From Ptychodera flava (Eukaryota > Hemichordata > Enteropneusta > Ptychoderidae): a stretch of DNA of 64,000 bases. Shown in pieces: positions 6,780 through 57,923 of the stretch. The translations under genes were made by a program, and so were the position numbers. The DNA lies in the NCBI RefSeq assembly GCF_041260155.1, contig NC_091930.1, forward strand, positions 41,019,523-41,083,522, read 5' to 3'. The number at the start of each line of letters is the position of its first letter. Positions within the stretch are counted from its first letter, which is position 1. Below the pieces are notes generated by a model that did not search any database, was not told the DNA's origin, and saw nothing but the letters and a program-made list of their open reading frames with translations.

Positions 6780-8444
6780 ATGGGAGATAACGGTAAAGAT
6801 TTGTACGACAAGGCTTTATTCCTATCCGCCTCCTGGGGTGATCATGGGTTCAAATTACCTATACTAAATGAGTCAATAATCAACGAGTTCTACGCCAAGC
6901 ATGTAGATTCGCGATCAGATACCAAGCCCAGTATTTTCTCAACAATTGTGGCTGACAAATTTGATAGGGATGTAACGCTGAGTGCTCAAGAAGCAGGGGT
7001 GACCCTCATACCCGCAAGAAGAAAGGCAGGGTCAACACCAACGAATGATCCACCAGGCTTCCATTGGCTGTTAAATCATGAGATCTACTATCCTTCTCTG
7101 TCTGAATTGAAAAATGTCAAGTTCGTGGTTGGTCTAAAACCGTTGACGTCTGCCGTAGCTGAAGATGTCCAGAAAAATCTATTTCACGATGCAAAGTTAG
7201 TTCTTCTTCCTGGTAGCAACACACTGGGGGCGTTGTTCGTCTTTGATTCTTGGGACATTGGCAAGTGTGGTTTACCGTACTTTCATAGAGTTATTTTGAA
7301 AGATTTACACACGAGAAGAGGAGAGGCTCTAAAACTATATGCAACAACCCTCGATGTGACAATCAGTTCACAACAACAAGCAGATATACAAGCAGCAGGA
7401 ATAAAATTGATTACGGCAACAAGAAGTGAGTATGTCGACCAAAAGATGACCCAGTCCAATTACTTTGGCTCTCCAATTATAAAAGCTACTACGGACACCT
7501 AAAGGATTTGCAGAATATCAAGTGCGTGGTCGGTTATGCTCCAAAAACATGTGATGCTGCGGCTAGCATCCGCAAGGATCTGTTTCCTTACGCGAAGTTG
7601 TACCAGATCAACCCTTTCCATCCACAATACTGTCAGCTGGCATCCAGAGAACGAGAGCAGATCGACATGAAAATGCTTAGAGCAGCCGAGGAGGCCGACG
7701 CAGTGGTGTCTATCGGTCCTTCCATGTACGAGCACTTTGAGAATGAATACAGAGCTATTCCAGAGAAGAGCGTGCCCCATATTGAACTCATACCTAAGGT
7801 TGGGGAAGAATTCACTGTTCGAGACGTCAAGTTTCCACCGAATATAAATGAACCTGTAGTAGTGTCGTATGGAGAAGTTCTTACCAAAAATGCTCAAGAA
7901 GAATTCATAACAAAAGCAGCTGCTATCAGTAATGTCACAACAGCTTTGAAAAGTACACGAATGCGCCCGCCAAGGTGGAATATATACGTGGCAGGTGTTC
8001 AGAATGAAGAGGCGTTCCGTACATGCATTACCGAAAACAAGCAAAGAGACTTTCTGGATCTAAGAACTACGCCAGAATATAGCCCCACTCAGCTCGTTAC
8101 GTACCTCCTCCGGTGCCATCTTTGTGTTATTGCAGAGAATCCTGCAGAGTATGGCTTTCTCGGCTTGGAAGCAATGCTGATGGGATTACCTTCCCTCGTA
8201 GATAAAGATTCTCAGCTGGGATACCTAGTTGATACAAAATTCAAAAGTTATGCAAACAGTTGTCTTGTCAACAAGAAAGACCAATGGTTTGATAGAGTAA
8301 TGGATGTAGTGTCGTCTCCGCATTCGGCTTTGGAAGATGCAATGAAGTTGAAGACTGACTATCTTGGCAGCAAGGACATGAAGGAGAGCTACACTAGATT
8401 TGCTAATTTATTTTCAGATTCCGAAGAATCTACGCCATCTAATG
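6780..8444 (+). CDS. Gene A exon 1: GT-B-type region with duplicated N-lobe
   Basis: The start is the first ATG (MGDNGKDLYDK) after an acceptor-like TATTCACAG. Residues 1 to about 145 form one N-lobe copy (ALFLSASWGDHGFKLP, then GVTLIPARRKAG, then SELKNVKFVVG). Residues about 146-330 are a second copy (GALFVFDSWDIGKCGLPYFH, GIKLITATR, DLQNIKCVVGYAPKTCDAAA). The C lobe follows, with VVSYGEVLTK and the signature AEYGFLGLEAMLMGLPSLV, which matches the donor-binding EX7E region of GT4-type retaining glycosyltransferases but with Ala at the first acidic position. One -1 frame step is needed near 7443 (A run); past it the reading continues DDPVQLLWLSNYKSYYG, which aligns with gene B. The exon ends at AATG|GTATGT, phase 1. 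Whether it catalyses anything is unclear. Confidence 0.75.
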
Positions 8445-11400
8445 GTATGTATTCTGAATAGTGAATTTTTATTTTACAAATAATAACATTACAAAATACA
8501 ACTTTTTATCAACAACCTAGTAGACAGAAAATATTTCTCAATTAAGATAAATTTACTCTTTATTCCTTAGATGTTGTGTAACCGTAGATTTGGACGAAAT
8601 ACCATGGACAACATGTCTTGAGGATTTAGAAAATCAGTTGAACCGTCTGTCCAGGGAGACACCTGACAACGAAGCTGCCATAGCTGCTGTCGTAAAACGT
8701 ATGATGGATTTATTGAATGCTTTAAAAAGATGTCAACAAAGTTACAAACGAAAAGCAGCTAAAGTGGTGGAAGAAGAGCATCATTTATTGATAAACGATT
8801 CACGGAGGGAGGGCATGGTGTGCATGAAGTGAGGAATATCATCGAAGGGTCTCTTCGTTTGTCATGCAACTTTCTCAGCTTTATTAATCTCTATATATTT
8901 AAGTCCAGCTGTAAGAATGGAAGGCTTGCTAGTAGCCTAGAACCTCTCCTTGTAACCGAGGAAATAAAAGAGAAGCCGCAAGGATGGAATTACCGCTACA
9001 TCTGCAGGTCGTATATGATGAGGAAATGTTTCAGGCTGTTGAGAATTACTTCACTCAATGTAAGTATAAAATTCAAACAGGAGGGATCAAAGATTTCGAC
9101 TTCTCATAAAGACAAGCACGAACGAGAATGGTCATTGCTTTTGCAATGCTTCGTTCTTCGCTAATATAAGACCCTGTAAAGAATCCAACTCTTTGAACTT
9201 AGAAGCGGAGAAAGTGTGAAAGTTCATTTTCTTTTTACATGAGATAATGAGAATAGGGTAAAGTTACACTTCTTCGAAATCATCAGACATTAAGCTGTTC
9301 TTGTAACATACATCTGTGATTTGTATTGATACACGTGTGATCGTTTCTACATTACTTGTAATTTTGTAATGTTGGAGTCGTCGTAGTTTATTATTAGATC
9401 TTCCTAGCTCACAGACATTAACTTTTGTTTTCATTAAAATAATTTTGCTTTTGTTGAAGGCAATGGCGTTCAAAGTGCACACAAACTTGGAAAACCCGAG
9501 AGTGAACTGGGAAGTCCTCCAGACAATATGGATGAAGGTACTGCAGGAGAGGCATTTCCTAGAGATGAATCTGCTATTTTGGAATTCGACGAAGGTTATG
9601 GCGAGTCTGAACTTGGATCAGATGTAGATGTGAGTTAACCTTGTATTGCCTTCAGCCCCTGTACTATGTGTACAGAGTAGATTTTAGCGAGGTTAACGTA
9701 AATCCCCAGAAAACTTGACTCATCAAAAACAATTGCCTAGATCGTCCACAGAATATGTCCTAGAAAAGGTTTCCCTCATATTGTAATAAATTATGTATAG
9801 GTAAAAAGTCACGTACTGGCAACATATATCCAGGCTATTGCCACAGTAATCTTATCGCGCTCGTATTTAGTGGGAATTACGAGTTGAGGTACCAGTCTTT
9901 GGAGCTGACACACCAAGATGTAGATTGTAATACAACCTTGTACTTTATTGCAAGATGGCGACCATGTCGTTCATCGTCAAAGATCTGATCTCGAGTTCTC
10001 TAGTCTAAGCTCTCTACAAAGTTTAATACAGCTCTAAACGTACATAATTAAAAAAAAATATCACGTGGTAATTTTCCCGCCGTCTTTGATAGTTTCTTAG
10101 GATTAAATAAGATCACACCATGGAATTTCCCGTTCTCGATTGTTCTCAATGAAATCTTAACCAATAATCAATTAAACTATCACACTATCTCTTATCTGCT
10201 TCTCATACGATCTGAGTCAATGACCTTCACAAGCCTTGGCCAGGTGAGGGACGCTTCGAGATAAAATCTCTACAGGGAAGGGCGTTACACTGTAATGTGA
10301 CAACCGTAGCGGTTGCCTGTTTTTTCAGGAATTTCTTGTCCGGTTATAACTCTCAAGGTTACCATTTTTACAATAATATTATATCGAGATTTTGCAGAGA
10401 GACATGGACGTCTGCCTTACAAACTTTTAAATGAACGTTACACCAGAGAAAGACTTGTATCCACAATTAAACACTTTTTGGCAGGTATCACAAGCTGGAA
10501 GGTAAATGCTATATCCCTCTTCGACAAATGATCGTTGATGGCATCAGTGACATCGGTCTTCAGTTAGTGACCACTATATATTTACTTACAGATTGATATA
10601 TGGCGGGTGTCACACGTTGGGCATGATGCGCTCGCTATTTCTGAAACACCTGATATGACTTCTTGGTCTTTTGGCCAGAGGTTCATATATCTTTTTTCAT
10701 GAATTGACTCTGTTGTGTGCACCAGTTCTTCACTGTCTGTTCTGCGCTGTTTTGTGCCTATGTTAATAACAATTGACTATGCATTACGAATTTTGACCTA
10801 GTGTTATATGTCTGTGATAATTTAACTATTACACATAATATCAACTCAAAGTATCTTACTAGCGTTGTTTGCCTCATAACGTGACAAAGGAGCGACTTAT
10901 AGTGTGTTCAAATGGGAGACCTATTACAAAATTTAGGGATCAATCTTTCATTGCTACTTTTTATTTTTCTGATATAACATATTACTTGAGAGAAGATCGT
11001 CCTTCCGTAGTTTAAGCGTTTCACATCAATATGAAACAAAATTCAAATTGCTTTCTCATAATATACAATTTGCATCATAGTTTTATTAGATTATTTCGGT
11101 TTTCATAACTTTAATTTTGGAAGGAGCTTCGATTATGTATCTTCAATGCATGCATTCCATTTAGTAATTTTCCTCCATTCAGTAATAAAAAGTACATACA
11201 TGGACAGAAACAAACAATCGCTTTGTTAAACACTGGCATCATCATAAAATGTTTCATTTATTGTGATTTTTGAATCGCTTTTGTTTTACCCAGCCCGAAG
11301 AATTGGATGACAATATGAAACAAGCAATTGTTACCGAAGAAAAAATACCCTCTATAGAAGGTAAGGGACTGGGAATCGTCACCACCTTTGTTAAGTAATC

Positions 11401-14400
11401 AGGAACTAGCTTTCGTATAACCTTTGTAATATATGTGCAGGCACTCATTTATCGACTCCAAACATTTTTCAAGTGATTGTAAATTTGAAACTAAGATAAT
11501 CGTTATCTGGCAAAATCAAACGTAGTTATTGCGCTTAGCAAATTACGAATGTTTGGGTTTTCCTTCTGTCGCTAAACAGGGAGATTCTTGTGTCAAACTG
11601 CAATCACCTAGAATGGACACTTATTACCCAAGGCATCAGGGATAGCATCCACACCAACTTGCAAACTGAATGCATATTGTCACAGAGTACGGCAAATATA
11701 ACCCACCAAAAATGGGTCGAACATTTCTGTTTTATTAGATATTAAGGATTATCACATGAACTGGCCCGAATTCCCACCTGTGTGACATAGAACAGGACGG
11801 ATAAAAAATGAGGTACACTCTGTGTGTCATCGAACGGAATCTCCGCGCTCGCCACGGTCGTAAACTTGTGTCATATTTTGAAAAGCCACGGAATCTCTGA
11901 GAATGAGAATTGGTGTTTCGATCGTGTCGTTGCATTTACTTCATAAATCTATTTGTAACTATTTTAAATAACTCTGAATACTATGGCTATCCGTCGCTAG
12001 CACGGTGAAAGCTATGTCCGCCGATGGCTGACTTGCCTTGGCATCGGCACAGCGCGAGACAATGATTGACACGTTCACGTGACCGAATACGATGACGTCA
12101 AGCAGAGAAAAATACCACGGGATTATATATAATTATCACACGCACAGGGCAAGTTTGTCGTCTCCGAACAAAAAATGCGGGATTTATTCTCTTGTCGTTC
12201 TACGTCACGTCAACCCGCGTCTCTGTCATCAATTTCGGTGGGTCGGATCTTTTTTTGCGTCGATCTTCGGTGTATTTGTCAAAGTAAACAACAAACTGTT
12301 GGCCGGTATTCTCCCACGTTCAAAATGTGTCTGACGTGAAAATATCGTAAACATTAATCACGATTATTGGAGTATGACAAAATACATCAACTTAGCAATT
12401 TTTTGAGTCCTCGTGTTTTAGTTTTGTCGCCAATATTCATGGCGGTTCGTATCCGTATAGACCCCACCGACGCCTGAACTTTCAACACACTGTGTACACT
12501 GTGTACTTTCATGCGGCAGACATACGGTTTCCACTGCAACAAGGGGTCAGGTGCGGTGTCCAGGCCTCCAAAAGTCATGCAATGAAATCGATATTTTCAC
12601 AGACTACGACAATAATAATCCGAACAATGTAAACACAAGAGTGTACCGCCTGTATATTCCGAAGGAATTGCGTGAATAATTTGCGGAAACAACGAACTCG
12701 AAGCTGGTCGCGTTACCGTGGGTTCCGTAAGCATTGCAACCAGGGTGGCGCGAGGTTTACTGAGTTCACGCCATCGAGATTCAGTCGATTTTTGTTCCCA
12801 AAAATAGCATATCTTCGTCTGAGGTAAATTTCTAGGCCTATGCTATCTTTGAAATAGTGTATAACTTTGCGGAAGGTACAAGTAGACAGAGAGGTCGACT
12901 GGCATTTGCTCCATACACGAACGAACGTGAACGCCGTGTTCCTCGATCAAGCGACGGACGACTGGAAATGAATGACAACTTGCGAACGGTGTATTGATAT
13001 TATTTCTAAAGTAGTTCAAAAGTTTATTGCGGAATCATCATGGAAAACTTCTCTTACTTGTCAAAAAATAACGAATTCGTGTGACGTAATGACCGTGTCA
13101 CCACTCGTCTATTACTCGTGGTGACACGGTCATTACGTTACTCGTATTACCTTCGCTAAACGAAGAAAAATATTAGGGAATAATATCTAATTATTTTGCT
13201 GAAAAAAAATCGTTGCAAATTACATTGCTTTCCCGTTATAATATGGAAGCTTTGGTTTCGTAGGAAAGGCGACTTGTATTCGAACGTTGTGTTCAAGTTC
13301 TCGCGATTATATAAAGGAAAGTGACGTTGTCTACGCCGTATAAATTAGTTCATATATGCTTGAGAAAAATACCCAGTGGTTAAGTTCAATGACACTGCTG
13401 TCTTTGTAATCTGTGCATAACTTCTGCCATGAATCATGAGAATTGGGCGGAGACAGAGATATCATCTGAAATTTGGCGTGCATATGCTGCATCTGACTAG
13501 GAATGAACGCCTTAAAACTTTCCTGCAGTTGATATATATCATTATAAACGTAGTTAGTGGCAGTAAATTTGTTATAACTTCGCTTTTATTGTTTATGCCT
13601 TACTAATTTTCAAAGAAAGAAGTTACTGCAGTTGACCCTCAGTAATTTGATAAGTGCAGTTTGTCTTCTGGGACGAACACAAACAACGTATTATCGAATC
13701 ACACTGTTATGAAAGAAATTTCAGCAATGTACATATGTAACGCTTTCAAACGACAAACATAATAAATCAATGGACATCGATGATGATATAGATAAGCATT
13801 CATCAGCTTTCTTTCTTTAATGCAGTATTTACCGAAGGAAATATGAATATCAGGAGAACTTTAGTCCAGTTGAAGCGATTTGTACAGCAACTCATCGGCT
13901 ATGGTAAGTCAATATTTATATAATTTTGTATCCATGCATATAAAACGATTATTTTTTATATCGCAAAGTCGTAGAAGATAGTAGACGTCATCGCTTACCG
14001 CAATATCAATACAGAAGCGCACATTATAGCAAACAAACTGGAGTGATAAGCGACAGGCGTTTATCGGACATGGGCAAACATCGGGACAAGATGAAATACA
14101 AGTTCATCGCATTGTAAATGGCGAACGTATGATAATCAAATCTCTGAGCGCAAGTAAAATTACTTTTTATAGCTAAAAACAAATAACTCAGGCAATGACA
14201 AATAACAGAAGTATACTTACTTGTTAAACAACATGTTCTCCTAGATAAAGCTGGACAACTATGAGTGTCGTGGAACGAGTTCCGCAACACTGTGGGATTG
14301 TATCATAGCGATCACGATTTGTTGCCTGCACTTGGCCTGGTGCTCCTGACCGTAATATTGATGACATCCTTTCTTTCGGCTGAGGCATCATCAATATTTC

Positions 14401-16389
14401 CGTTATGAGCACAATCCTTTGGGCGGGAAACATATCTTGAACTTGTCCTTGCTATCATGGGCAATTATTTAACTTCAGAATGATTATGTCAAGAGTGAAC
14501 TTCTTGACCGCATAGGGTCACTGCTAGCCCACAACGCTTGTGAGTGCGGCGTCAACAAACGTGATGGTCCAAGCTTCAATAGTTTTAACCATAATAAAGA
14601 TTTGGCGGTGATAGAGTAATAAAGTCATTAAAATAGCTTTGAAATTCAGGCATCAATATATATACCATCGACAGCAGCCGAGGGCTGTGATGTTTTGTGT
14701 CAAGGGTCGCCGTCCTGGTGCATAGTGCTCTGGGTAGCCGGACTTAACGAGCTGACTCATTCGTAACCCTGAGTCCACTGCCGCGATCATTGTAGTCCAG
14801 AGCCCGCCGCCGTCGAAGTTGTAGGAAAATAAAAGTTAAGCTGTGCAAGCACAATTATTTACAGTAACATAACTCGTAATGATATACAAGAACCGAACAA
14901 CCATACGCTGTATGATCAATTCACGACATAACTACCCCATTTAAACTCGATAACATCGTCGATGTTATAGATAGGGGAACATCGTGAATCTCAACCAATA
15001 AGACTGTTTCAAAGGAGTGACAAAACATACGATGACAAACTTTTTTAAAAACTAAAACTGGCGGCTACAATTCGGTAGACATTCTTTATTTTGCACATGA
15101 TATATTTCCCGGTTGTGTGTGTGTGTGTGTGTGGGGGGGGGGGTGGTGGTGGGGGGGGTGTACTCCTGATATTTTCATACAGGGTGTGCCACCGAAGTTG
15201 AAAATATCTAACCATGTATATTCCAAAAATACGACACCATTATCAGATATTTGCTTGACAAATTTAAGGATTTTCACCTTTATTTCGTTGTATCTGAAGG
15301 TTTTCTTAAAGCTTGGGACATTTGTGTTTTGTTATCGACCCATACTTTGGATTTTTTCGTGAAAAAGTGACCGCTTCGGGCGGCGCATACCCGTACACCT
15401 TCCTATAGCAGTACCCTCGGGATGTTTTCCCCTAAAATGGTATTTTATAACGTTCTTTAATTTATTTACATAATGTATAGAGAAAAGACGAGTTGAATTT
15501 CATGTGATGCTACATTTATTTTCAATTATACTTTGAATTTTATAGGTGTTAATCAACAATGGTACGTTCGAATTTTGGGTCAGCAGGAATCTGGAAAGGA
15601 GCGAGGACTCTTCAATAATCCACATGGACTTCGATGGCACCATGATCAACTTCTCATCTGTGACACAGATAACAACCGTATCCAGGTTCTGGATAAACAC
15701 TGCAAGTGGGTGGATGAAATACGATTTGATGATCGAGACACGTTTCCAAAAGCATTTCAGCCATGGGCCGTAGCCATATACAATGAAAACTACCACATAA
15801 CTGATATCGGTAACAACCAAATTATTATTTGTGACAAGCGTTACAAAGTCATTCAGCTTATTGCTAACAGTAAAGACATTTTGGTTTATGGCATCGCGAT
15901 ATTGGCTGGTCATGCTTTGGTCACTGACCAGAAGGGGAACAGTGTACTCAAATACACCGGGGAGGGAGACTCATTACAAGGTGCAAAGGTGGGATCTCTG
16001 ATGACGCACAACTGGGGTACCCCTATTCTGTTGTTGCAACAAATAACCGTGTCTTAGTGTCAGATGTCAAAAAGCATAACATAAAGGTCTTTGATTCTGA
16101 TTTGAGTTTTGTGACCGCCTATTGTAGTGAAGGTACAGGCAAAGGTGAGGTTAGGTATCCACTAGGCATGGATGTAGATGCATGTGGAAATATTTACATC
16201 TGTGATAAGCTGAACAACCGAATTGTGAAACTGGGATCCCATGGGAAGTTTATCTGCCACTTATTCCATGGCGACTTAGAAAATCCTATGGACATTGCAG
16301 TCAACGGGGCTGGCGACATAATCGCCGTTTCGATGTTCGGTGACATTGCTCGACCTGTGAACCAAATCCGAGTATTCTTCAAGCATTAA
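6780..16389 (+). CDS. Gene A: GT-B-like / TRADD-N-like / NHL fusion protein, six exons
   Basis: Proposed exons are 6780-8444, 8588-9059, 9460-9629, 11294-11360, 13826-13903 and 15546-16389, about 1,100 residues in all. From N to C terminus the protein has a duplicated N-terminal Rossmann lobe, a GT4-like C lobe, a TRADD-N-like domain, acidic and helical linkers, and an NHL-type propeller. All introns are GT-AG with phases 1, 1, 0, 1, 1, and these join without stops. The frame must move by -1 at four places (near 7443, 8784, 8965 and 15958), each in a short A, T or G run. There are no other in-frame stops, and similarity to gene B continues across each place. It is therefore either a gene with consensus errors or a very young pseudogene. 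The function is not known; the architecture suggests a cytoplasmic adaptor or sensor (no signal peptide or membrane span seen). Confidence 0.75.
8588..9059 (+). CDS. Gene A exon 2: TRADD-N-like domain
   Basis: The acceptor at 8586-8587 (CCGTAG) keeps phase 1 from exon 1; the better-looking acceptor at 8569-8570 would run into a stop. The exon encodes a helical N-terminal part (LEDLENQLNRL, MMDLLNALKRC) and then the conserved core EGSLRLSCNF, LEPLLVTEEI and LPLHLQVVYDEEMF. This is the pattern of the TRADD N-terminal domain and its invertebrate relatives: a beta strand with alternating hydrophobics, a helix ending in V/I-T-D/E-E, then PLxLxxxxDExxF. Two -1 frame steps are needed, in a T run near 8784 and an A run near 8965. 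The donor CAAT|GTAAGT is strong, phase 1. In known proteins this fold mediates assembly of death and immune signalling complexes; that role here is inferred. Confidence 0.65.
9060..9459 (+). other. Gene A intron 2
   Basis: GT-AG intron with GTAAGT donor and TTTTGTTGAAG acceptor. No other content recognised. Confidence 0.6.
9460..9629 (+). CDS. Gene A exon 3: acidic linker
   Basis: In the frame set by exon 2 the segment reads as an acidic, low-complexity linker containing ELGSPPDNMDEGTAGEAF and ends EFDEGYGESELGSDVD. The tail resembles the gene B linker (DEGYDDSEAVEE). It enters in phase 1 and leaves in phase 0 at GAT|GTGAGT. It probably spaces the TRADD-N-like domain from the propeller; no fold is expected. 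Confidence 0.6.
9630..11293 (+). other. Gene A intron 3
   Basis: A GT-AG intron of 1.66 kb. It holds a short Penelope-type retroelement relic (10383-10505) and otherwise nothing recognised. Confidence 0.55.
10383..10505 (+). mobile_element. Relic of a Penelope-type retroelement (3-prime part of ORF)
   Basis: A short stretch reads YTRERLVST in one frame, and at nucleotide level it closely resembles 63924-63995, the C-terminal coding part of the retroelement at the right edge of the window (shared GAGAAAGACTTGT and TTTTGGCAGGTATCA). It is a small fossil fragment in an intron of gene A. Confidence 0.6.
11294..11360 (+). CDS. Gene A exon 4: short linker exon
   Basis: Preceded by TTGTTTTACCCAG and followed by GTAAGG, phase 0 to phase 1, it encodes about 22 residues (PEELDDNMKQAIVTEEKIP and a few more), acidic and probably helical. 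It was assigned because it alone restores the phase needed between exons 3 and 5. There is no clear counterpart in gene B beyond the shared phase pattern. Confidence 0.55.
11361..13825 (+). other. Gene A intron 4, with CpG-dense part
   Basis: A GT-AG intron of 2.5 kb. The stretch from about 11,990 to 13,140 is denser in CG than the rest of the gene and holds a CACGTG site followed by a palindromic CRE octamer at 12093-12100. An internal promoter is possible but unproven. A perfect hairpin lies at 13085-13137. No coding exon was found. Confidence 0.4.
13085..13137. repeat. Perfect 20-bp inverted repeat with 13-nt loop
   Basis: CGTAATGACCGTGTCACCAC at 13085-13104 is followed by its exact reverse complement at 13118-13137. 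It lies inside intron 4 of gene A. It is probably a miniature foldback element. Confidence 0.9.
13826..13903 (+). CDS. Gene A exon 5: helical linker
   Basis: The acceptor TTTAATGCAG and donor ATG|GTAAGT define a 78-bp exon, phase 1 to phase 1. It encodes about 26 residues containing LVQLKRFVQQLIGYG, an amphipathic helix that resembles the gene B exon 5 segment YVQQLPKWVKKLMG. It leads directly into the propeller exon. Confidence 0.65.
13904..15545 (+). other. Gene A intron 5
   Basis: A GT-AG intron of 1.64 kb. It includes a GT/G-rich microsatellite at about 15114-15160; nothing else recognised. Confidence 0.6.
15114..15160. repeat. (GT)n / G-run microsatellite
   Basis: About nine GT units run into alternating G runs and GGT. 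The opposing short frames here (HTHTHT-type) are translation of the repeat and not genes. Confidence 0.95.
15546..16389 (+). CDS. Gene A exon 6: NHL-type beta-propeller, C-terminus
   Basis: The acceptor GAATTTTATAG opens the exon in phase 1 (GGT), giving GVNQQWYVRILGQQ. Blade motifs typical of NHL repeats follow: GLFNNPHGLRWH with LLICDTDNNRIQVL, FQPWAVAIYNE with ITDIGNNQIIICD, VLVSDVKKHNIKVFDSD, and YPLGMDVDACGNIYICDKLN. The last blade ends in VNQIRVFFKH and a TAA stop. Roughly six blades are visible, about 281 residues, as in gene B. One -1 frame step lies in a G run near 15958, and similarity to gene B resumes beyond it (GYPYSVVATNN). NHL propellers bind protein or RNA partners, and here the propeller is probably the ligand-recognition end. 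An ATTAAA polyadenylation-like signal occurs near 16533. Confidence 0.8.
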
Positions 16390-28976: not shown

Positions 28977-29059
28977 CCCTTTCACCCAGTTCCCTGTATA
29001 CAGGTCCAACTTTACCATAGTAAACAATGGATTTGGAACAAACCATGGTGGTGAAAGGG
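28977..29059 (+). mobile_element. 83-bp piggyBac-like MITE, only in copy 2
   Basis: The ends are CCCTTTCACC and GGTGAAAGGG. The left flank is TTAA (28973-28976) and the right flank TGAA (29060-29063), a TTAA target duplication with one change. Copies 1 and 3 show the site without the insert (in copy 3 GATTAAAATG). A TTAA duplication with CCCT-type ends fits the piggyBac superfamily. Confidence 0.75.
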
Positions 29060-32789: not shown

Positions 32790-32945
32790 CCTACAAAATA
32801 TTTGTTTTTCTTATGCAACAAAATTTTGTTTTGTTTTTATCCAACAAAATTTGTTTATTTTATCTTACAAAATTTGGGTTTTTTGTCTAACTAAATGTGT
32901 TTCTTTATCTAACAAAATTTGTTTTATTTTATGCAGCAACATTTG
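32790..32945. repeat. ACAAAATTTG minisatellite (copy 2)
   Basis: The same block as at 26060-26235, with small length changes. It is followed by a TGTCTGTC-rich stretch near 32990-33045. Confidence 0.8.
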
Positions 32946-33407
32946 TGTGAACTAACGTGAGCACACGTGAGCTAATGTCACAGCGATGTGTGTGTGTCTG
33001 ACTGTCTGTCATTCTGTCTGTCTGTCCTTCCGTCTGTGGACAAATATCTCACAAAAGCTGATCAGATCAGAATCAAATCTGGTACATAGACTTAGTTTGC
33101 AAATGACAAGAACTGATTAGTTTATAGCGGGTGTGGCTTGCTTACTTTTTGCTCATTTGCATAAAAAATATTTTATGAAACCGGTTATATCTTGAGAACA
33201 ACTGCACACAATTTAGTTAGAATTGCTACAACGTTGATCACACCAAGATATATCAGCCATGTAAGGTATTGAGGTATGACATAAAAGATAATTACTAATT
33301 TGTATATTTTTTGGTCAAAAAGTTGTCCACAAAAAGTTTTTGTCTTAAAGCTTTGATATTTGGTATACGTATTCCTAGGAATGATTCTAATGTGATATCT
33401 TTAAATT

Positions 33408-38355: not shown

Positions 38356-41041
38356 CCAGGACGGCAAATTTCAATATTGTAACACGATTTCCTATGTTTA
38401 TCAGTTGAAGCACTTGATTTAAAAGGCCGGTAATAAAACACCTACATACGTCAGGTGACCTTTGATCTTGCTAACGTTGGACAGGTGTACTCTAAGATTT
38501 CAAACGACTGTTTTAAATTCAAACCCAACGCCTCAACTGGCTTGCTTAGCACATTATAAAACGTCGGCAATTTAACAGCAGATATCTATTTAAAAGATTT
38601 CAAATGAAAGTAAAAAGAAAGTTCTATTACGCATATTTCGGATTTGAAATCTGCTACCGTACGTTCTAATTTTTCTTTGAAGTTGAATGTTAGAGGAACC
38701 AGTTTCTGAATTTCATTTTAATATTGATTTGTAGTATATTTAAATAAAAAGGCTGCACGCAAACTAAGTGTTTACCCTGGAGGGTGCTACTACGGTCAGG
38801 GTATGCCTACTATACCTGATTTTGACCCTATCCCTTCCCTGCGGTCTCATATATTTTTGACTAAAAATGTTCATGAAAAATTTAATACTGAAATTTAACG
38901 CTGTCTGTTTACCAAAGCATGTTGACTTTTGACTCCTTCCATTTAAGCTACATATAGGTGCTTACCATTAAGTCCAATCTTCAGAGTGATATTTTGACTG
39001 CCGGTAAGGCTGTTTCAGTTCCCAAGCGAAGGATTTGTTTGCTTGTGCTTGCTCGTGACGGATACTTGCATTTCGTAAATTGTTTAGTTGTTAAAATCAA
39101 ATCTGTATATTCATTGTCAATGTTTGAAGAAACGTTCTGTTGTCACACTTCGGTGATCACTTTTACATTACTTGCTTTTAATTTCGAACCTTACGAGGAA
39201 AATGCAAAAATGTACAGTTAAATGGACTTAATAGAAAAAACAGCAGAATTTATGTATTGTAGTTTGAATTTTTAAGGTAAATCGGCACCCAATTAGAGAC
39301 CTAGTTACCCAGGCTTGTTTCACGTTACCCTTCTACAAGAGCATCAAAACGGTAGCAACTAACTGTTATTTAAACCATCAACTCCTTACTCGAACCAGTG
39401 AACAAAATTCACTTTCCCGCTGAACAACTACATCACTTAAAGTTTGGCTGAAGGTTTCACATAAAAATAGACTACCAGTAAGATATTTAGAGATCGATGA
39501 TATCATTTCCATCCTACTCTATCTAAAAAAATATCTAGCAGGAAAAATCAACAACATGTTGGCTATAAGTCATTTGGAGCCAATTTCTTGGATTTGTGTA
39601 GTATAGAGCTCAAAGAAAATAAGACGATTTATTAATGTGTGACTGTGAATTATATTATCACATGATGGTGGAGACCATATGATATAATATCAAAGTTGAA
39701 AAACACAATAGTTGTTTTTGGTAGCCGAGGTTTCCAGCATCTTTTCAAGCAAGAATACATTGTTGACGTATAAATAAATCGCTAAAAGCAATATTTAGGA
39801 ACAAGATATACCTGTGTCAAAGGTTCTGCCTTCTATGTTTGATAAATTTTAATCGTTTCATATTTGTCGGTAGTGTTTTTTCCCTCCCAAATAGAAAGGA
39901 GCGGAGAGAAAGAGATGGACTATTAGATACGAGAAGCTAACTACGAGCAGTATTTTAAACATAATTATTAATAATTACGGTGAGAAATTCTGAAGTCATT
40001 CAAAATCTAAATATGATTTTAGCCCGCAATGAAGAAGAAAAAGCGCAAATATTGAATGGCGAAGGAAAAACAGAAAAGTCTGCCATTAGATTTCAAAACA
40101 CGCTTTTGAATCTTGATGAGTAGCAACACAGCAAATAAAGATGATATGGCAGCTTACTTGTACATTCATATAACTGCATCATGAATGATGCAACCATATT
40201 ATCATAGGTGTGGATTTCTTTCGGATTGAGTGTTGATGTTCATTTCTGTACACTATTGATGACTATTTCGAGAAAGATTAAATCGCAGTGATTTATAATG
40301 CAAATTTGTAACCTCTGTATAGTCAAGACGGATTTAAAGGCATGCTAATAATTTTAACAACATCTTGCAAACAGTTGCAACATCAAAACATGTCCAATAA
40401 TAAATCTCAAGGGCTTTGGTTAAACGAGACGATAGAAGACGCTGCACTTGAAGATCAACGTGGTACTGATCTGGCAGATTATGACAGGAGGAGGAACATT
40501 ACTTTTGTGACAGTTTATCTGCACTAAAGAAGAGAAACTTAAACCCAAACTGATCAGATCCAAGATTCTCATACTGTACTGATGTGAATTAATCGAACAT
40601 CCATAGGTATCTAGCATTCAAAGAGAGCACAGTGCGAATTCCCCTCCACAAGGGAAACGGCATGTTATGGATAATAGAGTCGGTTGAAACTTAAACAGAT
40701 CGGACATTTTCACCGTGCAAACTGAAACCAAGCAACCACACAAGGAGTTGGAAACTGAGTAGGAAATGAAGTCAGACGGTTACACTGGAACCTTTTGTAA
40801 GGGTCAAAGGAATAATATGACACTTTTACCTTACTCAAATGTCTTTTAAACAAGATATTGGATCGAAAACATTGCCTAATATTTGTGCTATTTGATTTTC
40901 TCTGGACATATCGATTGAAGATTGAACTGATACTATTTTCTTTAAAGACCAAAATAACATCCTTTGTCCGTTTACCATGTATTACGAATGTGGTATGGTT
41001 TAACACCGGCTATCAACATTTGGGCTGTTTTTTGGTCAGAG
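38356..41041. other. Intergenic, no firm gene
   Basis: Unique AT-rich sequence. The only protein-like stretch is a frame of about 50 codons at about 39970-40123 that ends in a stop and is rich in Glu and Lys; it has no partner exon or recognised family and is not called. Nothing else was recognised. Confidence 0.5.
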
Positions 41042-41530
41042 CACAGGGCCTCACAAGTGGCTATTTAAGTCAATATTACAGCGTTTTTCTTTCATGTTCA
41101 ATGTTACAAATAAACCAGCTGAAGAGCACAACACTTGTGTAGCTGTCTTTTGTGTAGCTTGTATTGGCATGTATAGTGCGCCCTCAATGGGGAATGTGAT
41201 CATATGTAAATGCGACCTTTAGTTCCGTGACCTCTAGCCATGCCTACTTCCTGTCCTCGCTATGCTTACTGAGTTACTGTACTATATTAGTACAGTAAAC
41301 ACAGCGACGTCTGTACGCATGGCCATGGCATGGCTAGAGGTCACGGAACTAAAGGTCGCATTTACATATGATCACATTCCCTGTTGAGGGCGCACTATAC
41401 ATGCCAATACAAGCTACACAAAAGGCAGCTACACAAGTGTTGTGCTCTTCAGCTGGTTTATTTGTAGCATTGAAAAAGAAAAAAAACCCGCTGTAATATT
41501 GACTTAAATAGCCACTTGTGGGGCCCTGTG
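41042..41530. mobile_element. 489-bp palindromic foldback element
   Basis: The element begins CACAGGGCC and ends GGCCCTGTG. The two arms are nearly perfect reverse complements for about 240 bp up to the centre at about 41286 (TACTGTACTATATTAGTACA). GTCAGAG flanks both sides (41035-41041 and 41531-41537), a 7-bp direct repeat consistent with target duplication. CA-starting inverted ends with a 7-8-bp duplication suggest a hAT- or P-like non-autonomous element. It lies 266 bp upstream of the gene B ATG. Confidence 0.9.
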
Positions 41531-41795
41531 GTCAGAGATGGGCTTTGCCTGTTTCTTTTGAATAAATTTTGTCTACAAGATATGAGATTTCAAATTTTTT
41601 TGGGAGTTGAAAATTGACACTTTAGAACATGAACGATTTGGCACATAATATTGATATTATTGCTACTGCGAAAACAATAAATGTTAACAAAGTCACACGT
41701 TGCTACCAACTCCCTATTGTCTTAGTCATATGCACAAATATTGAGTATTGAAAATAAAAAGCATGTTTGTAAATTTATTTTCGGCCAGTTCGGAA

Positions 41796-43313
41796 ATGGC
41801 ACTGAGCGAGAAGCAGAAAGAGCATCCTGGAGCATTGTTTGTATTTGATACTTGGGACAAGAATAAATATGGATTACCTGCTTTCCACCGGCATTTGGTC
41901 AAATCTTGGGCAAGAAAAAAGTAAAACCTCTTCAGCTCTATTCAACAGTTCTGTCTGATGAAATCAGTGAGAAACATAAGCAAGATGCACTAGAGCTTGG
42001 AGTAACCTTGATAAAGGCTCGACGGAAGGCAAGAATCCCTGCTCGTGACGACCCGGTAAGAATCGCATGGCTGCACAATTTTGAGAGTTATTATCCGGAG
42101 ATCTCTGAACTGAAGAATATCAGATACATCATCGGTTACTCACCGAAGACTGGCGATGCTGCAGCAGATATCCGAGATGGGGCGTTTCCTTCTGCACAAT
42201 TAGTTCTAATTAACCATGCAAGTCCAGAAAACGATTGCACCTTGGTACACCAGGAAAACTTACAAGAGTTTAATCAAAGGATGCTGAAAATGGCTAGTGC
42301 AGCAGATCTCATATTCTCTATGGGACCAAAACGTCATGACTTTTTCCAAAATCAATACAGAGTATGCATTGGGAAGAAGAAGCTGGAAGCCATTCCTCAT
42401 AAAGAAATACCACCAGTGCCACAGCAATCGTTCTTCGAGAAAAAATTAACTTTAGGACAGGCTATTAAGCATAATCCCGTCTTATTAACATATGGAGAAA
42501 TTGATAAAGATCGATTAGTGCAGGCTTTTGAAGGTCTCGCATCGTCATTTAGCTTGGTTGTTGAAGCGAGTCATAAATTCCACAGAGATCTCCCAGGTTG
42601 GAATATCCTCGGAGTCCCCAGTGCCTTGAGGGAGAAAATGAGCAATCTACTCAAAACTAAAATAACGAGCGACTTAAAAGTTGTGTTTCCACGCCTCTTC
42701 GAAGATCTTAATTTGGACAGTCTGGACGAAAATTTGTGTCAAAGTCACATCTGCCTTCCAATTCAATACTATGACGAATACTCTTTTGATGGTTTGGAAG
42801 CTCTAGCTCTTGGAGTGCCTTTGCTGATTGCAGAGTATTCACATCTGGCGCATTTCATTAAGAAATATTTGCCGAAGTATTGTGACCGTTACATAGTAAG
42901 GAAGGGTGAACAGTATCCCGATGAAATAATTAGCACATTGTGTGAAATCGAAAGAGCATTTGAAATAGCAGGTGAACTGAAAGATGCCTTCATGGCAAGC
43001 GAAGACGTGACATACAGTTTTGAAACATTCGTTGCAATGTTTACCGATGATACAGACAGCGATGACAATGAAATAGTTAATCTAAACCCTCAAATCGCAC
43101 ATCGGGAAAAGGCAGCAGAGAATGGTCAGGAAATCTGTAAAGAATTTTATCAACAAGAATCACAGTATGAGGGCGCACAACAAAGTGATCAGATAGAACA
43201 TACACAAAAGCCTGTCACCACAAGGACTGAAAGAGTGCATGCACCAGATAACCAAAGGCCACGTGATGTCATGGAGGATTCATTGCCAGGAAATCGAAAA
43301 TCAGAAAGTGCTG
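41796..43313 (+). CDS. Gene B exon 1: GT-B-type (GT4-like) region
   Basis: ATG at 41796 gives MALSEKQKEHPGALFVFDTWD; an in-frame ATG at 41763 is an alternative. The N-lobe runs to about residue 200 (GVTLIKARRKARIP, ELKNIRYIIGYSPKTGDAAA, AADLIFSMGP). The C-lobe runs to about 385, with PVLLTYGEIDKDRLVQAF, LPGWNILGVP and the donor-site motif YDEYSFDGLEALALGVPLL. An acidic, Gln-rich tail of about 110 residues follows. The first position of the EX7E-type motif is Asp. One -1 step lies in the A run at 41915-41920; upstream of it the frame ends VKSWARKK, downstream it goes on VKPLQLYSTVLSD. The donor is GCTG|GTAAGT, phase 1. The tail probably links the enzyme-like fold to the TRADD-N-like exon. Confidence 0.8.
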
Positions 43314-46300
43314 GTAAGTTATCTCGATTGTTTAAATACAGAAGATTTCGATCTGATTCGAACTTACAACGTACGGCGCCAATAACCTGACGAAGTCATC
43401 ACAGTAAAAACCATTCCGCCAAAGTGTTTCCGTTGTTTTAAGAAGGTTTTCAAATGCTTTGCCTCGCAACGTTGTTCTATTAGTGCTTATGTATAATTTC
43501 AAAAATATCACCCTGTGTAAGATAAAAATAGAATGGCGTAGTTTGAATGACAAATATCGCGTTATCTCTCACCACATGCAAGTAAATATGAATAACATAT
43601 AAAGAGGACCCAATGTATGCACATTAGTGGTTTCGTCCTTTGACAGTGAGAGCTTTTCGATAGAACAATTGAAAAAAGGTTAAAATGTGATAAATGACTG
43701 CAACGTACATTTCTAATTCGTTACTTCGTTACTGCTGAGTGAAAGTACAATCTCAAAAAAGTAACATCCCTAAACAACAACAGCGTACTAGTCGTATAAT
43801 GAATGAAGTTGTTCACGAGGTAAATTGATTAATCTTTGTACCAGCCAAGTAAAGAATGGCTTATGAATGTGATACGTTTTCAAGAGTGATACAAACACCA
43901 AAGTAGAAAGAAGGAGTAAACGTTTTCCAGTTGATTCTGTTTTCGCCTTACACGAACCAAAAAGGAAGAATTTCTAATAGATATAATTACAGACATAAAC
44001 TGTCTTATAAATACAACGTAAGCTTCACTATTCGCAAAAATCTTTTATTTGCTATGTGTGGTCTCCTTATAAGTCTTGACATTCTTATTTTATGGTACCG
44101 TTAGATGTGTTTGAATGAGAGTTCAAACATATAAATCGTCATGGCATTAATGTAATGCAAATTGTCCAATGTCATTGATACTTAGGAGCAGTAAGCTCAC
44201 CTGTCACCAAATGTTTGTCAATGAAATTATTTATGATAAGTGAAAGGACTGAGGAGGCAATTAGGGGAAATTAATTTTGCCGGTTGTAAACTTGCAACTT
44301 TAACGCGTTACGAATCCTGACAGCACTAAAAAGGCCAACTACAATACAAAATCGATCAGCTTTTCTCATTTACACTTGTAGAATTAACTGTGACGATCAG
44401 GTTAAATGAAGAAGATTTCCAGGAAGCTATAAGAAACACTTGACAGCGAAACAGGAGAGCATATCAATGAGAGAGCGAATCGACAAGAAGAAGAAAGTGA
44501 CAGCCCGCCATTGCGTGAGAGAAAGCTTACAATACAAATAATAATCAAAGAGAACAACAAATCCTTCTGGGACAGAGTGCACGATGCATTGAATGGAAAC
44601 AATGCAAAACAATTTATAGACTTTCTCGTCAATCAGTGCAAAGATAATCATGCGATATTACTGAAGGTCTCTGAAGGATCTTTAGTCTTGCGCCTGAAAT
44701 TCAGTTGCCTCCAAAATCTCTGTAAGTTCGAAGGTAACTGCAAAACAGGGATATTTACTCAGCCTCTTGAACGCTTCTTGATAACCGATGAGATGAGAAC
44801 AGCTGCTGAAAAAGCAAGTACGCCTCTACACCTTGTCGCTGTCTACGATGATGAAAAGTTCGAAGAGGTCTCTCGTTTTCTTATCAAAGTAAGTCAAAAG
44901 TATCGATTTGGTATGATCATTTCAAAGTGCCTTCTGCGTGTATCTTTAAATTCGTTCATGTAACACGAGTTCCTGTAATGTTTACAATACCGTTGCCTAA
45001 AGTAAAAGTCTTCGAGGTTTATTGTGTGAATACGCATTTACGAGCTGCCAGTATCTTTTGATGTTGACCAAGAGGAGGGTATTCACTCTTGCTTTTACTT
45101 AAACTTGTAATCTTTCGAATACATCCACAATAGTAAATTTTTTAAACATCTTTTTTCAGCGAGTTTATAGAAACGTTTTCTTATCAGGCAGTTCTTGAAA
45201 AATTTGTGTCCCATTGCTACTTTGTAGCATACATGCTATCGGAGTTTCACATTGGTCAGTTGACAACTGATAGTAATCGGATTTTGATTAACTTTTACCA
45301 GCGGTAAATGTGCAGTAAAGTTTCTATTTGGACATCTATTACGCATTGCAAACTTTACTGATCGATATTTGTCTTCATTCGACCACTCAAATAACATTAA
45401 CAAACTGTTTTTAACTTAAAGGAGATGGTGGCTTTGACTTAACCGAAGACAGTACCAGCTCAGATGATAATGACGATAACGAAAGTAAAAGCAAAAAATC
45501 CGTATGTGGTGGACTGCTCAAAGGTAAGTCATTGTCCTCAGTTTGATCTTTAATTTTTTTCCTTTTAGTCATGGAAAGATAGACCCGCTGATAACGTAAA
45601 TTGCAAGTAGAATATACTTCACGCAATGCACTCTGAAATTTATGACTCTGAACATCGACTCACTACTTTATTTTCTGATAAATATATAACATTTCATTTG
45701 GTTACCACTCTTTAGAAACCTACAGCTGTCAAAACGCCAGCTTGTCGGGAAGAAGAAACAAAAGGTGCAGCAGGTAGGAAATCATTTGCTAGAATTGACT
45801 GATGAAAAATGTGAACTATTAATTTGATTAGTACAGTTAATTGGTAAACTATAATATCCTTTGATTGATAAATAAAGCTCATAAAATAGCGAGTGATGCG
45901 GCAAGAGTGAAGGTGAGTGGACACAGACAGCATCTTGTACTAATCAACAGTGAGCTAGACAGTCGTCGAGATTAGGCTAGAGAACACCCTAAGGCTTCCC
46001 TTGGAAAACCCTTCCAGTTTGTTTCCACTCATTTATGTCCATCACATTGTACTTGTGGTCAGTGCATTGTAGTAGGAGGGATCAACCTTAGAATGAACTA
46101 TTGGAAATATGAAAGTTTCCCGAGGTGGTGAAAATCACGTGGGCTTGTAAGTTAGATAACAAATTAAAAAGTACTCTCAGACTCTGTAGGGAATTTGTTA
46201 ACATTTATCACGTGGAAGAAATAAACGACTTCTAAATGCAGTGATATTGTGCACATCATAATTACATCATAATTATGATTCAGTTGGTACTGAGTTATCA

Positions 46301-48583
46301 AAGGTGGAATCCTAAGTACCCTATACCTTTTTAGGTTTACTTGTGGTAAAGGTTACCCATTTTAAATCATAAAATCGGCAATGGGTGAGAACACCCACAA
46401 TGTATTACAGACTGATAACAACAAAACATTACACAACATGATCCTCATTCAGCTATCAATTGAGAAGGAACTTGCTAAGATGGCACATTGATGTTCTTTG
46501 AGTCAGGTATTGATGACTACTTTCAGCTTTATTATGCTTTGTATCCAATGTCAGGGGATGACAGCAAAATTCCAAGTGACTTTGGGCAAGGCAAGGGAAA
46601 ACAGACTGGCCGACAAGAAGAACTTGACGAGGGGTCCTATGACTCGGAGGCCGACGAAGGTTATGACGATTCTGAAGCAGTCGAGGAGGTGAGTTACACT
46701 AACTCGCGTTGACATAAAAAACAAACATAAAAAGACGTTTTAATTAAATGAATATCTCTGAAATATATCCATATGTTCAATTTATAAAGGTTAAACTTTC
46801 TGCCAAGCGTGATTGGAAAGAATCTTACGTTCAACAGTTACCGAAGTGGGTGAAGAAACTCATGGGTCATATAGTCCTTGGTAAGACGGTTTTCATTTTT
46901 TGCGATTACATTACTTGCAATTTCATTTTTCCAAAGAAACGTCATCACTCTGGTTATTTCGTCTGGATTTTGATGTATTTCTTACATACGGCGTTTTCTC
47001 TATAGTTAGAGCTTCTTGAGATACATATGAAGAGAGCTATAAAATATGCTAATTTTAATATGCTTGGAAATTACAGGGAATAAAAATGTCTTCTTGATGC
47101 AGGTACAAAGAAGTTGTTTTGAAAACTTTCAAAATCTACATTACGTCAGGAGAAAGTTGCAAACGTATTAAGTTATGTAAGAAACAGTGCAAAGATGATT
47201 TGATGAAAAGTTACACCCGCATCTTAAACTAAAAATGCCTCATATAAATTGAGAAGAACGTAGTTAATTTATCTTGGGATATTAGTCTGAGAGGGGTATC
47301 AGGATACCCTAATTTATACATTTGGTGGAAATAGTACAGGATGCTTTACAGACAACCGCAAAGTTTTTTTTTTACATTTTTAAAATTATACTTTGCATAG
47401 CAAAAATGTCCACATGAGTACAAATTATTTGTTGAGCTCCTGACCTTCCTAACGCTTAAATGCTACAAACAACATAAATGTGAGTTTCACTAACTGATTC
47501 GAAAGATCAGTAACAATTCGGAGATCCCGAACGCCTTGAACTCGAGAAAAAGGCACTCTAGTTCTTTGAGTATTAATATAGCATGTAATATAGATGATTG
47601 ATGGTTACATATGCGCTATGAAGGTATTGTAATGTTTTCGCTCATGTAATGTAACTTTGAACTCGGACTCTTTGAGAAAATCATCTCCTAAGAGTATATT
47701 CACTGAATAGCGCATGTCTGTTGTTTATATCTTTACAGATATCAATGAAGAATGGTCTGTTCAGATATTGGGGTTGCAGAAACCTGGAACTAAGCAAGGA
47801 CTGTTTAATAATCCAAATGGACTTCGATGGCATCACGGGCAACTTCTTGTTTGTGACACAAATAATAATCGTATTCAGATCCTAGCCAAACACTACAGCT
47901 ACCGGTCAGTAGATGAAATTCGATTCGATTCGATGACAAATGCTTTCCAGCCATGGGCCGTAACTGTGTACCGTAAAGAATATTACATATCTGACATCGG
48001 TAACAATCAAATAATTATTTGTGATAAATGTCATGAAATACTACAAACTATCGCTGTGACGCCAGATATATCGGTGCATAGCATTACGGTTATAGCTGGA
48101 TTTGCTGTGGTCACCGACCACAAAGGGAATAAGGTACTCAAGTACAACAAGAAGGGAAACCTTGTTGCAAAATACCAAGGTCAAGGCAGTGAAAACACAC
48201 CGATAAAGTATCCCCATTCTGTAGCGCCCGCCAGCAACGGCAGTATTTTAGTGTCCGACGCAAACAACCATAACATAAAAGTTCTTGATTCCGATTTGAA
48301 TTACGTGGAATCATTTTGCGCTGAGGGTACAGGCAAAGGTCAAGTGAGATATCCCCAGGGCATTGATGTAGATGCACGTGGAAATATTTACATTTGTGAT
48401 AAGTTGAACAACAGGATCGTAAAACTGGGATCCAACGGCAACTTTCTTCGTAATTTATTCGAAGGTGACCTAGAATATCCAACGAACATTGCGGTCAATC
48501 CGGCTGGTGACGAAATTGCAGTTTCAGTGTTTGGTAACATTGCTAGACCTGTGAACCAAATATGGGTTTTCTTCAAAAAATAA
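41796..48583 (+). CDS. Gene B: GT-B-like / TRADD-N-like / NHL fusion protein, six exons
   Basis: Proposed exons are 41796-43313, 44434-44888, 45422-45523, 46555-46688, 46790-46880 and 47739-48583, about 1,050 residues. The domain order equals that of gene A except that the N-lobe is single. The introns are GT-AG, with phases 1, 1 (after one corrected base), 1, 0, 1. One -1 frame step is needed in the A run at 41915-41920 and one base is lacking before the donor at 44889; otherwise all exons are open. The protein has neither signal peptide nor membrane segment, so it is probably cytoplasmic. The likely role is recognition through the propeller and signalling through the TRADD-N-like fold, with the GT-B region as a nucleotide-sugar-binding or catalytic module. 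This is inference; no family name is assigned. Confidence 0.8.
43314..44433 (+). other. Gene B intron 1
   Basis: GT-AG intron with GTAAGT donor; the acceptor chosen is CTATAAG, the only one giving phase 1 without a stop. No other content seen. Confidence 0.5.
44434..44888 (+). CDS. Gene B exon 2: TRADD-N-like domain
   Basis: After a charged start (ETLDSETGEHINERANRQ) the exon encodes KENNKSFWDRVHDALNG, KQFIDFLVNQC, EGSLVLRLKFSCLQNL, LERFLITDEM and PLHLVAVYDDEKFEEVSRFL. This is the full strand-helix pattern of the TRADD N-terminal domain and related invertebrate domains: EGS before an alternating strand, an LITDE turn, then PLxLxxxYDDEKF. It aligns with gene A exon 2 (HFIDK, EGSLRLSCNF, VTEEI, PLHLQVVYDEEMF). 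The donor AAA|GTAAGT is strong but ends in phase 0 where the next exon and gene A need phase 1, so one A may be missing from the run. In TRADD this domain recruits TRAF-type partners; the partner here is unknown. Confidence 0.75.
44889..45421 (+). other. Gene B intron 2
   Basis: GT-AG intron with GTAAGT donor and TTAAAG acceptor. Nothing else recognised. Confidence 0.5.
45422..45523 (+). CDS. Gene B exon 3: acidic Ser/Asp linker
   Basis: Between TTAAAG and GTAAGTC lie 34 codons reading DGGFDLTEDSTSSDDNDDNE, then SKSKKSVCGGLLK, phase 1 to 1. It is low-complexity, acidic then basic, and likely a flexible linker with possible phosphorylation sites. Gene A has no equivalent exon. Confidence 0.6.
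45524..46554 (+). other. Gene B intron 3
   Basis: GT-AG intron of 1 kb. An exon-like piece at 45716-45773 is flanked by AG and GT but does not keep the phase. No other content seen. Confidence 0.5.
46555..46688 (+). CDS. Gene B exon 4: acidic linker
   Basis: The acceptor AATGTCAG and donor GAG|GTGAGT bound a 134-bp exon, phase 1 to 0. It encodes GDDSKIPSDFGQGKGKQ and then DEGSYDSEADEGYDDSEAVE. The last part matches the end of gene A exon 3 (DEGYGESELGSDVD), so the two are counterparts. Confidence 0.7.
46790..46880 (+). CDS. Gene B exon 5: helical linker
   Basis: The acceptor TTTATAAAG and donor CTTG|GTAAGA give a 91-bp exon, phase 0 to 1. It encodes VKLSAKRDWKESYVQQLPKW and then VKKLMGHIVL, basic and amphipathic. 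It corresponds to gene A exon 5 (LVQLKRFVQQLIGYG) and joins directly to the propeller exon. Confidence 0.7.
46881..47738 (+). other. Gene B intron 5
   Basis: GT-AG intron ending TATATCTTTACAG. Nothing else recognised. Confidence 0.6.
47739..48583 (+). CDS. Gene B exon 6: NHL-type beta-propeller, C-terminus
   Basis: The exon starts in phase 1 (DINEEWSVQILGLQKPG) and is open for 281 codons without any break. Six blades can be counted from GLFNNPNGLRWH/LLVCDTNNNRIQIL, FQPWAVTVY/ISDIGNNQIIICD, ITVIAGFAVVTDHKGNKVL, YPHSVAPA/ILVSDANNHNIKVLDSD, YPQGIDVDARGNIYICDKLN and YPTNIAVNPAGDEIAV, ending VNQIWVFFKK. These are the D-x-x-N-x-R/I and GNIYICD signatures of NHL repeats as in TRIM2/TRIM71-type proteins, but no RING or B-box is present. 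The propeller is about 60-65% identical to gene A by eye. AATAAA overlaps the stop codon. Confidence 0.9.
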
Positions 48584-57190: not shown

Positions 57191-57225
57191 GTCACACTGC
57201 GCTGTACACGGAACACGAAACAATA

Positions 57226-57471
57226 TGTATAGGATAAAGCCCAAGTACGAGGGCTCTTCTGGTATATAAAGTCCAACCCAACGATAAAATGTCGAGGCCG
57301 CAGGCCGAGACATTTTATCGTAGGGTTGGACTTTATGTATAGGATAAAGCCCGAGTACGAGGGCTCTTCTGGTATATAAAGTCCAACCCAACGATAAAAT
57401 GTCGAGGCCGCAGGCCGAGACATTTTATCGTAGGGTTGGACTTTATATACCAGAAGAGCCCGAGTACGAGG
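57226..57471. repeat. Two 110-bp tandem hairpin units
   Basis: Units starting TGTATAGGATAAAGCCC at 57226 and 57336 each contain a long perfect hairpin: AAGTCCAACC..CGATAAAATGTC pairs with GACATTTTATCG..GGTTGGACTT around GGCCGCAGGCC. The segment AAGCCCGAGTACGAGGGCTC also reappears inverted at 57452, making nested inverted repeats. Confidence 0.9.
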
Positions 57472-57483
57472 GTTTTATCCGAC

Positions 57484-57886: not shown

Positions 57887-57923
57887 ATATCAGAAGAGCC
57901 CGAGTACGAGGGTTTTATCCGAC

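Follow-up and report, generated by a model that had tools for sequence, protein, structure and literature searches.

A 64,000-nucleotide stretch of the genome of the hemichordate Ptychodera flava (contig NC_091930.1, positions 41,019,523 to 41,083,522; hereafter the window) carries two genes in which the same three modules follow one another: a GT4 domain, a TRADD-N-like domain and an NHL propeller. Gene B (41796-48583) is the one for which a sequence-only reading of this DNA had proposed a protein combining all three. The peptides quoted there are encoded on the forward strand inside gene B (SFDGLEALALGVPLL in exon 1, EGSLVLRLKF and PLHLVAVYDDEKF in exon 2), and the propeller lies at 47739-48583 on the same strand. 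Searching the window by tblastn with the parts of gene B yields a second complete three-module set, gene A (6780-16389), in the same order and on the same strand. The best E values are 3e-47 for GT4 (matching gene A 6912-8431), 2e-8 for the TRADD-N-like domain (exon 2 of gene B being homologous to gene A 8763-9088) and 1e-56 for NHL (15539-16383). Since gene A repeats the module order of gene B, we take the parts to form one gene, and this repetition is our best evidence for it: the order on one strand stands as first proposed, and the modules would presumably be spliced into one protein. Both genes are divided by GT-AG introns, the GC content is 32-41% per 2-kb bin across the window, and no tRNA or Rfam match reaches the gathering score anywhere in it.

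Three exons had been named for gene B; we find seven candidates. Splice sites were ranked with a weight table, the window holding 3,856 GT sites. Exon 1 (41796..43313) runs from an ATG through the GT4-conflict domain (~41835-42991) and an acidic linker to a phase 1 donor, G|GTAAGT, in the top 0.2% of GT sites. Exon 2 (44455..44888; 5' boundary uncertain) holds the TRADD-N-like segment (~44523-44888), with Gly-Ser at the presumed beta2-beta3 turn. Candidate exon 3 (45422..45523) is acidic, phase 1 to 1, with no Pfam match and a CAAAG|GTAAGT donor in the top 0.0% of GT sites; candidate exon 4 (45716..45773, phase 0 to 1) is a linker of 19 codons, too short for a profile scan. Exon 5 (46555..46688, phase 1 to 0) is an acidic linker ending in DEGYDDSEAVEE, exon 6 (46790..46880, phase 0 to 1) is a basic segment resembling gene A 13826-13903, neither with a Pfam match, and exon 7 (47739..48583) carries the propeller and the stop codon. 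All six donors are within the top 1.4% of GT sites in the window. The acceptor of exon 7 ranks in the top 0.6%, those of exons 3-5 in the top 5.4-7.4%, that of exon 6 in the top 18% and that of exon 2 in the top 50%. The path through exons 1, 2, 4, 5, 6 and 7 is in phase, and from exon 2 onward it reads 521 codons without interruption, counting the stop at 48583.

Exon 1 had been taken as unbroken, and it is not: its reading frame changes near 41913-41923. The frame that opens with the ATG at 41796 reaches a stop after 42 codons, shortly beyond a run of A, and the GT4 domain resumes at ~41921 in another frame; the short N-terminal piece matches gene A 7227-7301 at 68% over 25 residues. With the two frames joined by an X, PF20706 scores 102.7 bits instead of 88.2 and the match grows to cover positions 1-372 of the 385 in the profile, and we therefore place the break inside the GT4 domain. 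It may be a sequencing error or a real lesion; a 15-base intron was rejected as too short to be credible.

Gene A comprises six candidate exons on the forward strand, the phases of which agree (assembled by hand, with exon 2 starting at 8588). Exon 1 (6780..8444) begins with an extra N-terminal GT4 half (~6780-7214) followed by GT4 (~7215-8390), with a frame change near 7430-7442. With PF20706, 7442-8440 scores 77.9 bits, whereas 6780-7430, which shares 43% identity with gene B across 95 codons, falls short of the 26-bit cut-off at 19.1 bits. Exon 2 (8588..9059, start perhaps 8571) encodes a helical-looking segment and then the TRADD-N-like domain (IIEGSL..PLHLQVVYDEEMF), with frame changes near 8775 and 8967. 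Five sub-threshold Pfam hits within 8590-8775 (best MbeD_MobD, E 0.015) were taken as helix-driven chance. An acidic linker (exon 3, 9460..9629, phase 1 to 0), a further linker (exon 4, 11294..11360, phase 0 to 1) and a basic segment (exon 5, 13826..13903, phase 1 to 1) lead to the propeller and stop in exon 6 (15546..16389), where the frame changes near 15956-15984. The four donors scored, those downstream of exon 1, are all in the top 1.3%; the exon 2 acceptor is in the top 35% and the other four within the top 3.9%. The acidic linkers DEGYGESELGSDVD in gene A and DEGYDDSEAVEE in gene B resemble each other, with a common DEGY segment, donor phase and GTGAGT, and a basic segment precedes the propeller in both genes. 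No linker of either gene gives a Pfam match above cut-off among those scanned (all except gene B exon 4), and no counterpart of gene B exon 3 is seen in gene A.

The two outer modules are assigned by profile. The open frame 41867-43390 matches PF20706 (GT4-conflict) with 88.2 bits and an E value of 7.1e-25 (cut-off 26 bits), which bears out the GT-B fold that had been proposed. At the other end, 47711-48583 matches PF01436 (NHL) in three stretches with 64.7 bits against a cut-off of 20 (E 4.7e-18), and the gene A propeller matches in two pieces (E 6.3e-7 and 1.8e-8); the propellers of the two genes are 61% identical in amino acids. The NHL assignment is thus secure, and the nearest solved chains are of the TRIM-NHL type: Drosophila Thin (1.8e-45) and TRIM71 (3.9e-33), then a designed propeller, TRIM3 and TRIM2. 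Among the exons and linkers scanned ahead of the propeller, PF20706 is the sole match above cut-off, and no RING, B-box or coiled coil was found. In LIN-41, a positively charged pocket of the NHL domain binds stem-loop RNA (PMC5908797). At pH 7 the calculated net charge of the propeller is +2.4 in gene B and, in its two pieces from gene A, +0.2 and -0.8, which lends an RNA ligand no support.

We consider it quite probable that the middle domain is TRADD-N, on the grounds of its Gly-Ser turn, its strand-helix pattern, its position between globular domains and the published GT4-TRADD-N order. Both genes encode EGSL with Gly-Ser at the expected beta-hairpin turn; the TRADD-N motif, in the sections of Kaur et al. 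2021 that define it, is a small residue plus Ser at the turn between beta2 and beta3 (PMC8195603). By eye, the segment reads as strand, long helix, hairpin, helix, strand. In each gene GT4 and NHL flank a single copy of the segment, and TRADD-N is described as lying between two globular domains (PMC8195603). Motif and context support the earlier TRADD-N assignment, which neither a profile nor a structure confirmed. Pfam holds the TRADD-N models PF20694 (TRADD-like_N) and PF13820 (NCOA6_TRADD-N), neither of which matches exon 2 of either gene; the domain gives no Pfam family at all at E<=10 in either gene, in a profile search whose filters drop most matches above E ~0.1, and plasmids give no match to the domain at E<=10. 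The family itself was found by iterated and profile-profile searches, according to its description (PMC8195603). Searching the PDB with exon 2 returned INTS6 alone by profile (E 0.28) and COP9 subunit 7 by single sequence (E 0.57 and 1.2), both taken as chance. An alternative exon 2 acceptor in gene B, at 44380/44381, leads to a frame conflict, and in the other frame opens a segment at 44381-44440, ELTVTIRLNEEDFQEAIRNT, that faintly resembles the start of gene A exon 2; it is possibly an extra first strand of the TRADD-N-like domain.

All three modules bear the mark of coding constraint. In each, the two genes differ more at codon position 3 than at the first two positions, and nonsynonymous differences are below synonymous ones in every module compared (Nei-Gojobori): dN 0.21-0.24 and dS 0.98-1.01 for NHL, pN 0.46 and pS 0.78 (saturated) for GT4, and pN 0.47/pS 0.71 (68 codons) and pN 0.39/pS 0.90 (25 codons) for the TRADD-N-like domain. 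The modules differ at fourfold sites, counted in shared codon boxes: 25/70 such sites differ in NHL, 30/42 in GT4 and 9/13 in the TRADD-N-like domain (NHL against the pooled 39/55 of the other two, Fisher p = 1.4e-4; codons adjoining breaks and a 25-codon GT4 N-terminal piece, in which 5/5 sites differ, stand outside the pooled test). Unequal synonymous divergence along one gene points to module exchange: because the propeller exon is less diverged at fourfold sites than the front part, the NHL exon was probably exchanged or converted between the loci after their front ends had separated. An alternative would be a strong codon bias restricted to NHL.

Taken together, the layout would be a GT4 domain of GT-B fold, a linker, a TRADD-N-like bridge, an acidic linker, a basic segment and a TRIM-type NHL propeller. 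The protein most likely works, by analogy, like the published GT4-TRADD-N-repeat immune-like proteins: the propeller would recognise an invader or danger ligand; at rest, the two ends would be held to each other by the TRADD-N-like domain, and once ligand is bound the GT4 end would be freed or recruited as the output module, which may be an enzyme or a nucleotide-sugar-fold binding module. This agrees with the published model for TRADD-N proteins, in the sections that set it out (PMC8195603), as did the "sensor or effector protein" of the sequence-only reading. We favour this explanation, in which the two genes are diverged copies of one multi-exon animal gene encoding a protein of ~1,000 residues, and hold it to be slightly more probable than all else combined, because the same order occurs in two genes, their linkers share DEGY and the donor phase, an in-phase path exists, the modules are constrained, the PF20706 and NHL profiles match, and there is published precedent. 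That precedent, in the relevant parts of PMC8195603, is GT4 placed before TRADD-N, TRADD-N between globular domains and beta-propellers as proposed sensors.

Several observations weigh against this explanation. Profile comparison, which had been suggested with the sequence-only reading, assigned exon 1 to GT4-conflict and exon 7 to NHL, and for exon 2 of gene B (frame 44433-44960) returned nothing from Pfam, NCBIfam or PADLOC at E<=10, with the same filters dropping most matches above E ~0.1. Structure prediction, suggested likewise, gave no usable model of exon 2: AlphaFold, run with three alignment rows, returned a mean pLDDT of 40.6. The first half of this low-confidence model has a strand, helices and a hairpin, with Gly in the hairpin turn and Ser beginning the next strand; the second half is without the helix and strand expected of the RRM-like beta-alpha-beta-beta-alpha-beta fold. 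Exon 2 acceptors are weak in both genes. Because NHL and the front part have diverged to different degrees at synonymous sites, the fusion was not necessarily inherited as a single unit. Finally, PF20706 is above cut-off in 14/14 control prokaryote genomes, and its GT4-conflict label is therefore no proof of a conflict role.

The alternative that survives best concerns the output end: GT4 may no longer be a glycosyltransferase and instead serve as a GT-B scaffold for binding some ligand or partner, making the protein an adaptor or a sensor at both ends. Canonical GT4 enzymes have two catalytic features, GR...K and Glu-x7-Glu, the Arg of the GR motif being phosphate-binding. Aligned with the canonical plasmid-borne Bacteroides GT4 (L002), both paralogues have YGE in place of GR and a Glu-x7-Glu loop one residue short; yeast glycogen synthase, which matches weakly (E 0.15-0.16), has the first Glu where gene B has Asp and gene A has Ala. 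Enzymatic activity is doubtful in both genes because these canonical positions are altered in both. The altered form, EYxFxGLEA, is common to two copies whose GT4 domains are only 31% identical, and so looks maintained rather than decayed. Against this, L002 is a single canonical GT4 aligned across the full domain at 16% identity, and GE with a short Glu loop, if normal for the conflict-type GT4 group, may still be compatible with activity. Pattern scans of prokaryote genome and viral contigs with the GT4 alignment gave no relative, tblastn against plasmids gave no match at E<=0.01 for gene B and weak hits only (E>=0.6, in 9 records) for gene A, and tblastn against phages gave no relative. We regard the scaffold as a tentative reading, less probable than an output module but to be taken seriously. 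The altered active site offers a simple test of effector against sensor.

That one or both copies are pseudogenes, with recognisable exons and no working protein, seems unlikely. The frame breaks, one in gene B and four in gene A, all fall within recognisable domains or exons, which speaks for decay and against the favoured explanation. Yet none of the 16 pieces, each read in its own frame, contains an in-frame stop (0/16), and the constraint visible at codon positions argues against pseudogenes. The five breaks, few as they are, move the frame the same way each time and are never more than a few bases from a short run, which is how assembly errors would look; two further possible conflicts at the exon 2 starts (8571 in gene A; 44381 in gene B, where the direction is opposite) are excluded from this count. 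Still less probable is that the parts come from separate transcripts or are alternatively spliced, with a GT4-NHL form of gene B lacking TRADD-N perhaps as the main product: exons 1, 3, 5, 6 and 7 do join in phase and stay open from exon 3 to the stop (391 codons including the stop), a further point against the favoured explanation, and the exon 3 donor is among the strongest in the window and the exon 2 acceptor weak, but exon 3 is out of phase with exon 2 and could be used only by skipping exon 2 or with a different donor phase there, exon 2 is conserved at the same place in gene A, where exon 3 has no counterpart, and the path including exon 2 is likewise in phase.

A bolder combination, which we put forward as a rather improbable conjecture, is that GT4 is a catalytically silent nucleotide-sugar fold serving as ligand or partner binder in two-ended sensors with a TRADD-N switch, among which NHL is passed by gene conversion or exon exchange as the front ends diversify. 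If true, a shared NHL with a diversifying front would be the opposite of what is described for many TRADD-N proteins, where the N-terminus is constant and the C-terminus varies.

Between genes A and B (~19300-38400) lie three direct tandem copies of a ~6.6-6.7 kb unit, ~85-96% identical by stretch, in which open frames recur; the one scanned, 21973-22380, has no Pfam match. Further tandem arrays are found at 1834-3378 (226-bp unit, ~6.9 copies) and 57224-58326 (110-bp and 440-bp units). Just upstream of gene B, an inverted repeat at 41036-41536, perhaps a mobile element, has arms at 41085-41244/41327-41486 that are 96% complementary and outer arms at 41036-41092/41480-41536 that are 89% complementary. 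Reverse transcriptase-like open frames (YIDD by eye) occupy more than one frame of 62457-63989; 63203-63694, one of three frames scanned there, scores 19.3 bits with PF00078, below the cut-off of 29.6. Retrotransposons are reported near TRADD-N genes in a part of PMC8195603.

The sequence-only reading knew of no described function for the combination. The GT4-TRADD-N pair is in fact already in print: Kaur et al. 2021 describe cephalochordate, hemichordate and cnidarian proteins in which GT4 is followed by TRADD-N and leucine-rich repeats (LRRs), and give the coral Acropora digitifera more than 500 paralogues of GT4 (PMC8195603). They also report TRADD-N proteins with WD40 propellers, and suggest propellers as sensors of invaders (PMC8195603). 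NHL as the third module is what we did not find, among the matches listed from the open-access literature; 'NHL' has 0 occurrences in the main text of PMC8195603 (text only, figures and source data aside). For Acropora, a survey from 2013 lists 107 NHL genes, and the passages concerned speak of no fusion with GT4 (PMC3640398); coral proteins that join glycosyl transferase group 1 with NACHT are noted in parts of PMC4083563 and PMC12314368. The new points are the NHL variant, the second gene, a propeller exon that has diverged differently, and the changes in the GT4 site; the interpretation was partly published before. Both in bacteria and in marine animals, GT4 domains are found repeatedly next to immune-like modules, and what the animal forms do is only proposed by Kaur et al. 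(PMC8195603). The TRIM-like NHL, given that some such domains bind RNA stem-loops (PMC5908797, in part), suggests ligands to test.

By sequence, the closest solved natural NHL domains are those of the TRIM-NHL proteins Thin, TRIM71/LIN-41 and TRIM2/3. In TRIM proteins, RING, B-box and coiled coil precede NHL; in genes A and B, GT4 and the TRADD-N-like domain occupy their place. The TRADD-N-WD40 proteins of Branchiostoma and Crassostrea gigas likewise have a propeller after TRADD-N, in Branchiostoma via a low-complexity linker (PMC8195603). Their front ends are different: the Branchiostoma protein starts with a DED, and that of C. gigas has a HEPN RNase and immunoglobulin repeats before DED-TRADD-N; the propeller is WD40, not NHL, and no GT4 is mentioned in the passages describing them (PMC8195603). 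The coral glycosyl transferase group 1-NACHT-LRR proteins (PMC4083563, PMC12314368, in part) share a GT-B domain in an NLR-like layout, whereas no NACHT or LRR was found in genes A and B. Closest in layout are the GT4-TRADD-N-LRR proteins, as outlined in the relevant portion of PMC8195603, which also begin with GT4, continue with TRADD-N and end in a repeat module; here NHL replaces LRR, the middle domain is TRADD-N-like and gene A has its extra GT4 half. The gene pair looks like a variant of this recently described family of marine-invertebrate immune-like proteins.

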